From NCBI RefSeq assembly GCF_000023285.1, contig NC_013162.1, positions 1,764,501-1,828,500 of the forward strand: a DNA stretch of 64,000 nt, written 5' to 3'. The notes under the pieces were generated by a model. That model saw only the letters and a list, made by a program, of their open reading frames with translations, had not been told where the DNA came from and ran no database searches. Position 1 is the first letter of the stretch; each line of letters begins with the position of its first letter. The stretch is from Capnocytophaga ochracea DSM 7271. Its GTDB lineage: Bacteria > Bacteroidota > Bacteroidia > Flavobacteriales > Flavobacteriaceae. This document shows positions 9,218 to 63,405 of the stretch, one piece after another. A program made the position numbers and the translations under genes.

Positions 9218-9370
9218 TAAAATTTGGTACTAATAGTAAAGTTTTTTGTAGTAAAACTTTTAATACGAGTTATTATTGGTTCTTCTTTCGCCCCTTAGAG
9301 TTAAATAACATCAATTCAATATAACAAAATTCTATTTTTCATTCGCCTTTCCCGTCACTAATTTCCCCTT

Positions 9371-9640
9371 TTCCGTCATACTCTCACCTAGTGTCTATGG
9401 TCTATAGTCCAGAACCTCTCACTCCATTTGCTAATTTCCAAATTTGCTAATTCTCTAATTTCCCCACCCGTCAATTCTCTTTCCGTCATACTTTCTCCTA
9501 GTGCCTATGACCTATAGTCCAGAACCTCTCACTCCATTTGCTAATTTCCAAATTTTCTAATTCTCTAATTTCCCGACCCGTCAATTCTCTTTTCCTTCAC
9601 ACTCCCCCCTAGTGCCTATGGCCTAAGGCCTATTGCCTTT
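9371..9640 (+). repeat. Tandem duplication, 110-base unit
   Basis: Two near-identical units begin at 9371 and 9481 (both start TTCCGTCATACT and contain CTATAGTCCAGAACCTCTC). A partial third unit starts near 9591 and runs into the composite repeat. Non-coding. Confidence 0.85.
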
Positions 9641-9644
9641 TCCC

Positions 9645-10081
9645 TTTCTTTCGCCTCGAAACCCCGTTTTTAACATTTTTATCATTGTTGTATCATAGTG
9701 TTAATCAACTTTTTATATACTCTTTCTATACCAATCGTCCAAGATTCGTATAAGCTTCCTATAAGCTCCCTATAAGCTAACCATACCCTCCTAACGACCA
9801 TTTCTTATCAGAATCACTCTTAACTCACTTTCGAACTTCTCTTTTTTCTTCCGATAGCTCTAACCCTCTATCGCCCGTGTGACTCGCACCTCCCACCTGT
9901 CTGACCTCCGTTCTACAAGTCCGCCTCTGCTGTTGCATTTCTTGTAGTTCGTGCCCCATTTACTCAGCACGGCATTCGTTTTTAAAATAATAGGCTTATA
10001 TTTTATTAATAAACCACAAAAAAATAGTAGAGAATATTAGATGTTTTCTCTTTAGAAAGTCGCTTTTGCGGATTGCCCCCC
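9645..10081 (+). repeat. Composite intergenic repeat, copy A
   Basis: It begins with CTTTCGCCTCGAAACCCCG and TTTTTAACATTTTTA, runs through the 52-base core at 9727-9778, then a pyrimidine-rich part with CTTCCGATAGCTC, and ends with TCGCTTTTGCGG near 10070-10081. The order of blocks matches copies B, C and D, but the stretch after the core is more diverged. The terminal TTTGCCAAAG dyad is missing here. Confidence 0.8.
9727..9778 (+). repeat. 52-base core of composite repeat, copy A
   Basis: It starts TATACCAATCGTCCAAGATT and continues into three 11-base iterons ending in TATAAGCT. It is identical to the cores at 33360-33411, 41166-41217 (reverse) and 63203-63254 (reverse) except for two variable bases between the second and third iterons. 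Confidence 0.95.
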
Positions 10082-32745: not shown

Positions 32746-33359
32746 TAAAAAATAATAAAAATAATATACAGATTGTTACTTTTCTAAAACCAAATCTACT
32801 GTATATTAACGTCAGTTCCATATAACAAAATACTGAATTATAATTATATTCGCATCATAATCCGTGTAAATCCAGCAACGCAGTTGCTAATTCGTGCCCA
32901 TCACATTTGTCAATTATCAATTGTCAATTGTCAAATGAAAGACTATCCGTGTATTCCGTGTAATCAGTGCGCGACTTTAAAACAGCGAAGCTGTTTATTC
33001 ATTTGATTAATAAAGGTTTAACTATATATTTCTTACGTCGAACTCACTTTATATTATTATAACCCTTCTTATTTTTTGTAGACCTGCCTTTCACGAAAAT
33101 AAAACCCTCATTTTTCGTCTATTGTTCCTTTGTCATTCGTCACCCCCGTCCCTCTTTATTCGTCATTCGTCCCTCGTCATTACTTCCCTTTTCCGTCACT
33201 CGCCCCTTGTCACTACACCCCCTCTCCTTGGGAGAAGTCTCCGAATAGGAGAGTATGTGATTGGGGAGAGGATTCTTTTTCTTTCGCCTCGAAACTCCGT
33301 TTTTAACATTTTTAGCGCTGTTGTATTACAGTATGAATCAACTACTTATATACCCTTTC

Positions 33360-33411
33360 TATACCAATCGTCCAAGATTCGTATAAGCTTCCTATAAGCT
33401 CTCTATAAGCT
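33360..33411 (+). repeat. 52-base core of composite repeat, copy B
   Basis: Identical to copies A, C and D except for the two variable bases before the third 11-base iteron (here C, T). Confidence 0.95.
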
Positions 33412-33526
33412 AACCCCACCCTCCTAACACCCTTTTTTCACCAAAACTTCTCTCAGCTCTCTTCCGTTCTTTTCCGTTTCCTTCCGAAAACCCTAACCAG
33501 TCCCAACACATCGCTTTTTCATCTAA

Positions 33527-40970: not shown

Positions 40971-41300
40971 CTTAGCCAAAGTTCAAACTTTGGCTAAGTG
41001 TGTAGCGCAAAAGCGACACACCGGAGTTTTTCGGAGAATCTCGGGGGGACTTTGAAAGTCTTGGGAGGGGGAGTGAAAGGATTGAAAATTTGAGGAGGAA
41101 CGAAAGTTTTTGGAAGGATTTTAGAAAGGTTTAGAAAGATATTGAAGGTATGGTTTAGTGTACTTAGCTTATAGAAAGCTTATAGGAAGCTTATACGAAT
41201 CTTGGACGATTGGTATACAATGACTGTATTAAACGTTGAGAAACAGGTATTTAGGAGGTGTTAAAGATATATTAAAACGAAAGCTGAGGCGTAGGGGTGT
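40971..41300 (-). repeat. Composite intergenic repeat, copy C
   Basis: Minus-strand copy. Read on that strand it has the core (41166-41217), TTCCGAAAAACTCCGG, GTGTCGCTTTTGCGC, TACACACTTAGCCAAAG and the dyad arm. Flanks differ strongly from A, B and D, and the 5' part before the core is only loosely similar (TTTAACACCTCC). The terminal dyad is CTTAGCCAAAGTT with AAACTTTGGCTAAG (40971-40998), in which a compensating pair of changes keeps the stem. Confidence 0.85.
41166..41217 (-). repeat. 52-base core of composite repeat, copy C
   Basis: Minus-strand copy, identical to the other three except at the two variable bases (here T, T). Its near-perfect match contrasts with poorly matching flanks. 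Confidence 0.95.
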
Positions 41301-63053: not shown

Positions 63054-63405
63054 AACTTTGCCAAAGTTTCAAACTTTGACAAAGTGTGTACCGCAAAAGC
63101 GATGTGTTGGAACTATTAGGAGCTTTCGGAAGGAAACGGAATAGTTCGGAAGTGGGTCGAGAGGGATTTTGGTGAAAAAAGGCTATAAGAAGGGTGGGGG
63201 GTAGCTTATAGATAGCTTATAGGAAGCTTATACGAATCTTGGACGATTGGTATAGAAAGGGTATATAAGTGATTGATTAATAATATCATACAACCGTACT
63301 AAAAATGTTAAAAATGGGGTTTCGAGGCGAAAGAAAAGGAATCCTCACCCCGTCCCTCTCCCAAGGAGAGGGGGTGTAATGACGGGTGACGGGTGACGAA
63401 TGACG
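63054..63405 (-). repeat. Composite intergenic repeat, copy D
   Basis: Minus-strand copy, colinear with copy B: CATTACACCCCCTCTCCTTGG, GAGGATTCCTTTTC, CTTTCGCCTCGAAACCCC, ATTTTTAACATTTTTAG, core (63203-63254), CCTTTTTTCACCAAAA, TTCCGTTTCCTTCCGAAAG, CCAACACATCGCTTTTGCGG, TACACACTTTG and the dyad (63054-63085). Confidence 0.9.
63203..63254 (-). repeat. 52-base core of composite repeat, copy D
   Basis: Identical to copies A, B and C apart from the two variable bases (here A, T). Confidence 0.95.

Follow-up and report, generated by a model that had tools for sequence, protein, structure and literature searches.

In the ParR/parC centromere of plasmid R1, rows of five 11-bp direct iterons are bound by a protein multimer. 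DNA uptake sequences comprise hundreds to thousands of short sites, some of them inside genes. REP/BIME elements are high-copy extragenic repeats and REPs are palindromic, and in minisatellites/VNTRs the number of units changes mostly by whole units. The palindromic sites of Noc in B. subtilis (14 bp) and those of SlmA in E. coli are dispersed over tens of chromosomal places and are under-represented around Ter (PMC4726725). For phased A-tract clusters, an 11-bp "structural code" with a role in DNA packaging has been proposed (PMC4132750).

The genome of the oral bacterium Capnocytophaga ochracea VPI 2845, a single contig of 2,612,925 bp, carries 11-bp arrays that differ from each of these systems in a visible or tested feature. 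One of their forms is a 52-bp core noticed in a window of 64,000 bp, which is the whole stretch of DNA analyzed at the outset (positions 1,764,501–1,828,500). Unlike the plasmid centromere, the core is chromosomal and occupies 139 places. Unlike uptake sequences, the core has 139 copies, and none of 134 examined is within a called gene. The arrays share extragenic placement and high copy number with REP/BIME elements, but no inverted repeats of at least 8 bp surround the four window copies, and even spacing extends across unit sequences. Units are mostly gained and lost whole, as in VNTRs, whereas the near-invariant core recurs in 139 places and shows a repulsion that is absent in period-7 and period-8 arrays. 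Compared with Noc and SlmA sites, the units are direct rather than palindromic, the 139 places are evenly spaced, the region free of the core holds other arrays, and no Noc paralogue was found. Finally, the phasing of A-tract clusters is also 11 bp; it is a statistical AT-phasing that extends into genes, whereas the present arrays are intergenic and tandem, and no curvature is predicted for the core.

The core and its copies in the window

The core lies at 9727–9778 (copy A) and 33360–33411 (copy B) on the plus strand, and at 41166–41217 (copy C) and 63203–63254 (copy D) on the minus strand; relative to copy A, the four differ at 0, 1, 2, and 2 positions, respectively. The initial annotation was accurate on these coordinates and strands, and also in stating that the same two positions vary in all copies; these are 9768–9769 of copy A, and they read CC, CT, TT, and AT. 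It had further described three iterons beside an invariant 20-mer. This division is wrong, as the 20-mer itself is in 11-bp register. The core consists of consecutive 11-bp units, TATACCAATCG TCCAAGATTCG TATAAGCTTCC TATAAGCTnnC TATAAGCT, which in copy A reads TATACCAATCG TCCAAGATTCG TATAAGCTTCC TATAAGCTCCC TATAAGCT. Three TATAAGCT units are present in 120 of the 137 copies analyzed, and in the others their number is lower or higher, or the first unit is a variant. Whole units were lost or gained in five copies (550815, 697585, 776189, 956085, and 1755306), and one copy (1265964) has lost 2 bp, which breaks the phase. In the reading favored below, arrays gain and lose units mostly by 11-bp steps, and a slot held by one family can be taken over by another.

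The flanks had been described as drifting. The drifting flanks of copies A, B, and D are part of a family sequence of ~217 bp with subfamilies; those of copy C are not (41% upstream and 42% downstream to the consensus). The family is one which is recognizable around ~100 copies in the genome. In the window, this element spans 9639–9854 around copy A (plus strand; ends approximate, from the register with the consensus), 33275–33488 around copy B (plus strand; C1:1797775–1797988; 92% to the consensus), and 63125–63341 around copy D (minus strand; C1:1827625–1827841; 91%). Upstream of copy A, at 9368–9625, a 110-bp unit is repeated 2.3 times; it is built of intergenic modules (CCTATGGCCTA... and ATTTGCTA...) also found next to many of the core copies across the genome.

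By our own gene calls, three of the four copies are in divergent gaps, as annotated initially: copy A between Fmt and CysN, copy C between a nucleotidyltransferase (NTP-transferase) and DUF2339, and copy D beside a BatB-like VWA protein gene on one side. Copy B is in a tandem gap between DUF5686 and GalT. These neighbors are unrelated to each other.

Copy number, conservation, and gene context

The 20-mer of the core has 133 matches in the genome at up to two mismatches (73 on the plus and 60 on the minus strand) and 139 at up to three, compared with none for the reversed control pattern; the repetition is therefore not due to chance, and the core is not confined to the four window copies. Among these 139 copies, 137 were analyzed and 134 were used for gene context.

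The contrast between a conserved core and drifting flanks, drawn initially from four copies, is borne out genome-wide. Among the 101 copies with an upstream flank that is more than 70% family-like, the deviation from the consensus in ungapped comparison is 0.9% in the core, 11.0% upstream, and 22.6% downstream. For the 36 copies whose upstream flank has diverged, the corresponding values are 6.4, 41.2, and 51.7%. Among 34 of the upstream-diverged copies, 10 are still at least 55% similar to the consensus downstream and 24 are diverged on both sides. The retention of the core in otherwise decayed copies, as judged by these comparisons, points to selection on each copy, or possibly to gene conversion.

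Gene calls were made with a simple codon-score script rather than taken from an annotation. None of the 134 copies is within a called gene. Among the 120 copies with both neighbors called, 63 are in divergent, 50 in tandem, and 7 in convergent gaps; in the background sample of 864 kb, 33 of 181 gaps of at least 300 bp are divergent. The core has no fixed direction relative to genes. Likewise, no strand bias of the type expected for Chi/KOPS-like features was found relative to replication (66 of 137 copies co-directional, with the origin taken at parS).

Spacing and chromosomal position

No two of the 137 copies are closer than 3,940 bp. Between 0.23 and 2.28 Mb, only one of 130 core spacings is below 4 kb, compared with 21.7 expected from a simulation that chose at random among gaps of at least 400 bp (3000 runs; lowest count 9). 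Genome-wide, one pair is below 4 kb versus 16.8 expected when the estimate is limited by gap and gap type, with the divergent preference allowed for. Moreover, the copies are spaced more evenly in C. ochracea than random gap choice would produce.

Three perfect parS sites form a cluster at 997–999 kb (997143–998781) that is separate from the core copies, and the core itself has no TGTTYCACGTGRAACA palindrome. The 16S matches diverge, with the one at 0.72 Mb on the minus and the one at 1.70 Mb on the plus strand; the search showed two places, and four rRNA operons are named for C. ochracea (PMC3035226). The parS cluster and 16S polarity place the origin near 1.0 Mb. The position of dnaA is contrary to this: it is at 2.32 Mb (2323163–2324548), ~1.3 Mb from parS and nearly opposite, so the assignment of origin and terminus is not certain. 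GC skew was too noisy to serve as a marker, and parS and rRNA polarity were used in its place. Near parS, the stretch C1:1030001–1050000 (L243) is only 38% called coding, all on one strand, and contains no N letters.

The positions of the core copies are non-uniform (Rayleigh P = 1.4e-5). The copies thin out with distance from parS, with 23, 26, 22, 20, 19, 12, 8, and 7 per 163-kb step over both arms, and none of the 137 is between 2.271 and 2.573 Mb. This core-free region does hold other 11-bp arrays (2308235, 2398476, and 2407627), and the sampled stretches have a higher density of other arrays in the parts where core copies become sparse. By bare counts, the concentration toward parS is seen in the family copies and is absent in the older ones. 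The core family reads as the one that has lately spread, and the gradient as the trace of this family occupying slots mostly in one chromosome half.

Other 11-bp arrays and their avoidance of the core

The 52-bp core belongs to a wider class of 11-bp arrays, whose members share chromosome slots. In the window, a second kind is found at 51981–52134 (plus strand), about midway between copies C and D, with 14 consecutive steps in one phase. Different unit types (TCGTCTTTTGT..., CCACTGTAGAC..., and ATAAGCTTTGT) continue in phase within this array, and TTCG-type units run into CCACTGTAGAC units. Further intergenic 11-bp arrays of other sequence consist chiefly of TGTAGASCCAC (up to ~25 units) and TTCGTCTTTTG, and several arrays pass from one unit type to another without a change of phase, down to TATAAGCT-type units. 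The non-core arrays are also intergenic and over-represented in divergent gaps. In a core-masked sample of 464 kb, the intergenic tandem periods were 7 (40 arrays), 8 (21), and 11 (24), with few at 9 (2), 10 (1), 12 (1), or 13 (0). Heptamer arrays (CATTAAT and others), present at 52156–52271 in the window and elsewhere, are thus the commonest, and they do not avoid the core.

Within 1.5 kb of the 134 core copies, four non-core 11-bp arrays were seen, compared with 18.9 expected by length (P = 3.7e-4) and 29.3 by non-coding length (P = 1.7e-6). The avoidance is not absolute because these four exceptions are only 337–588 bp from a core copy; one of them is weak and AT-rich. For the control periods at the same distance, the numbers seen and expected by non-coding length were 40 and 36 for period 7, 18 and 5 for period 9, and 10 and 18 for period 14 (P = 0.09). 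Octamer arrays are enriched beside core copies, with 85 seen and 14 expected on the same basis.

Similar patterns were found in 40 background stretches, which were hand-picked and core-poor (30 copies in 864 kb, or 3.5 per 100 kb versus 5.2 in the genome). In these stretches, 2 of 38 non-core arrays are within 4 kb of the core (8.6 expected, P = 0.003), compared with 20 of 55 arrays of period 7 (12.4 expected) and 22 of 37 of period 8 (8.3 expected). Among the 33 sampled divergent gaps of at least 300 bp, 9 hold the core and 14 another array; no sampled gap of any type holds both, and about 6 would be expected to. Counts of core copies and other arrays per 20 kb are anticorrelated (Spearman −0.63, P = 2e-5), whereas those of core copies and period-7 arrays are not. 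Across 38 stretches of 20 kb, the variance/mean ratio is 1.01 for the core, 0.69 for other arrays, and 0.35 for their sum (0.74 for period 7).

For TGTAGASCCAC pairs, the matches listed genome-wide give at least 22 arrays, up to 2.31 Mb; these come from the first 100 of 111 forward matches and include none of the 172 reverse matches. Among these listed arrays, none of the 22 is within 4 kb of a core copy, with the nearest at 4,512 bp. Uniform placing predicts 8.9 and gave zero in none of 20,000 simulations, and a gap-limited null gives P = 0.0037. The nine listed arrays that fall in core intervals shorter than 30 kb are near the middle of the interval (mean |f − 0.5| of 0.077 versus 0.25, P = 0.0005), partly because of the core avoidance itself. 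The other 13, in longer intervals, are not centered (f of 0.12–0.93). Taken together, the genome has ~200–250 arrays (7.9 per 100 kb, or 137 core copies plus 38 arrays per 864 kb scaled), which corresponds to one 11-bp array per ~10–13 kb.

Distribution among relatives

The core is absent in 59 other genomes of the host's family, and in a sample of 397 genomes of this family (C. ochracea included), two others have one match each with two mismatches. Within 20 genomes of the genus, one (G066) has three full copies. Each of these loci (L153, L158, and L160) has at least one flank that is 92–98% like C. ochracea, compared with mostly 68–82% for 16 other sampled matches between the two genomes. 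The three copies are therefore not independent, and the similarity of their flanks may well reflect horizontal transfer. No core is found in the gap before DUF2339 in C. sputigena or C. periodontitidis; the neighboring gene differs, so this is not a clean empty site. Matches to the 217-bp consensus in G064, G071, and G072 were short (28–40 bp) and weak and were set aside.

Arrays with the 11-bp period are more widely distributed than the core. At a threshold of at least 16 of 22 matches, intergenic period-11 arrays occur at 8.5 per 100 kb in C. ochracea and 6.0 in both G060 and G066, where the unit sequences are other than those of C. ochracea. At the same threshold, periods 10 and 12 give 0.5–1.75 per 100 kb and period 9 gives 3.5–3.75 in C. 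ochracea and G060. Compared with resampled intergenic DNA, 9 versus 0.3 period-11 arrays were seen in G066 and 22 versus 1.7 in G060. In G061 and G077 (100 kb each), the counts are at the control level (0 and 0–1, respectively), so some members of the genus can do without the array class. The spacing was significantly even in C. ochracea alone, and evenness was not detected in the small samples of G060 and G066. In 65 kb from three named relatives, four period-11 matches were found, two of which are the same AT-rich place in two species; these were not relied on.

Possible function of the arrays

The initial annotation proposed a protein-binding or chromosome-organizing site. The dispersal, the conserved core, the intergenic position, and the ~4-kb repulsion make this the best-supported reading, in which the protein and its effect on the chromosome are what we infer. 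We suggest, with a confidence that falls somewhat short of even, that the core represents one version of a class of helically phased 11-bp arrays, recurring about every ~10–13 kb and serving as protein-bound domain marks. A protein multimer would sit on one face of the DNA, contacting one 11-bp unit in each helical turn, and the resulting nucleoprotein patch would act once per domain, serving loop or supercoil domains of ~10–13 kb as an anchor, a boundary, or a loader. A second patch nearby would be superfluous or harmful, which would produce the repulsion between arrays. One multimer per domain would fit the one unit per turn, the near-invariant letters, the lack of curvature and covariation, the divergent gaps, and the spacing. 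Several observations count against this reading, namely the incomplete exclusion (the four non-core arrays at 337–588 bp), the even spacing not detected in G060 and G066 and the near lack of arrays in G061 and G077, the phase broken by the 2-bp loss in copy 1265964, and the downstream similarity retained at 55% or more by 10 of the 34 upstream-diverged copies.

A bolder version is conceivable, though on balance doubtful. It holds that the 11-bp phase, rather than the letters, is the shared signal, and that the arrays form a DNA-encoded ruler at ~10–13 kb with its own reader protein; unrelated units would be interchangeable, would repel each other, and would turn over between species, with the period remaining constant. 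We know of no site family that resembles such a periodic domain ruler of 11-bp arrays. In the literature searched, which lies mostly outside subscription journals, we found neither such arrays nor evenly spaced domain marks encoded in the sequence. E. coli is said to have 400–500 supercoiled domains (PMC3820752), and in our judgment, how supercoil or loop domains are set in bacteria is largely unsettled. If domain marks of this kind exist, C. ochracea would offer ~200–250 defined and deletable domain sites. Moreover, the array sequence could serve as bait for the protein, and the unrelated sequences in the same slots would constitute a natural experiment, giving a handle on nucleoid organization in this part of the Bacteroidota.

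One alternative is a non-autonomous, MITE-like mobile repeat in which the core is a recombinase binding site and target immunity sets the ~4-kb distance. The ~100 copies with a common ~217-bp family sequence and subfamilies, the presence in G066 of three full copies that are 92–98% like C. ochracea in one flank or both, and the minimum spacing of 3,940 bp all agree with such an element. However, no inverted repeats of at least 8 bp (seed 7) were found around the four window copies, plasmids and phages gave no match to copy A (blastn, 221 bp), and viral contigs gave no exact match to a 28-base pattern. A recently active transposon end, which had been considered initially, is not supported by these findings. 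In addition, the conserved part is central rather than terminal, 36 copies keep the core despite a diverged upstream flank, and non-core arrays, though different in sequence, stay equally far away, which the immunity of one element does not explain. A mobile repeat is thus an unlikely explanation of the arrays.

We consider it similarly improbable that the arrays are regulatory, that is, operators or supercoiling-sensitive upstream regions read by a regulator of 11-bp direct repeats. Proteins of the OmpR/PhoB type do read 11-bp direct repeats, the arrays prefer divergent gaps, and a few core-like arrays are a short distance in front of a called gene (92 bp in the case of the array at 92242). 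A regulon, however, predicts neither even spacing nor avoidance by arrays of other sequence, and the neighbors of the window copies are unrelated and several are housekeeping genes, with distance and orientation to genes that vary.

DNA structure alone, with phased arrays pinning plectoneme tips in negatively supercoiled DNA and no specific protein involved, appears still less probable. It is common to interpret 11-bp phasing as the helical pitch that DNA has under negative supercoiling (PMC4132750). In a wedge model, the TTCGTCTTTTG arrays are strongly curved (0.238 versus 0.048 for shuffles), and the GAGCGAAGGAT and TGTAGAGCCAC arrays mildly so (P = 0.017 each). Nevertheless, TGTAGACCCAC is not predicted to be curved, and static curvature of the core is not supported by this model (0.023 versus 0.024 for shuffles; native mean 0.018, intergenic background 0.038). 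Furthermore, the near invariance of the core letters suggests that the sequence itself is read.

Nucleoid-occlusion or timing sites of the Noc/SlmA type are a very unlikely reading. The fall of core copies from 23–26 to 7 per 163 kb of arm pair away from parS would, with the origin near parS, resemble the under-representation of NBSs and SBSs at Ter (PMC4726725). However, by counts the family copies show this concentration and the older ones do not, other 11-bp arrays are present in the core-free region, and the genome has a single ParB_N protein and no second, Noc-like one; we rejected the Noc reading on the ParB_N count and these arrays. The units are also direct, and an imperfect inverted repeat in the first half of the core is not kept in variants. 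Lastly, a transcribed RNA element or hairpin, also raised initially, is extremely unlikely: the core folds better than shuffles (z of −3.4 on the plus and −2.3 on the other strand), but none of nine hairpin pairs has a compensatory change (26 of 137 copies, chosen for divergence), covariation equals that of shuffles, the site gave no Rfam match, and there is no fixed orientation to genes.

A further subclass of 11-bp arrays

In addition to the forms above, a subclass of 11-bp arrays has TATAAGGTTCG- or TTCAAGATTCG-like units followed within ~20 bp by a motif like AGTATATTTTTCT. It was seen at three loci of C. ochracea (L208, L221, and L231) and one of G066 (L162), and is possibly a promoter-linked or ancestral form.
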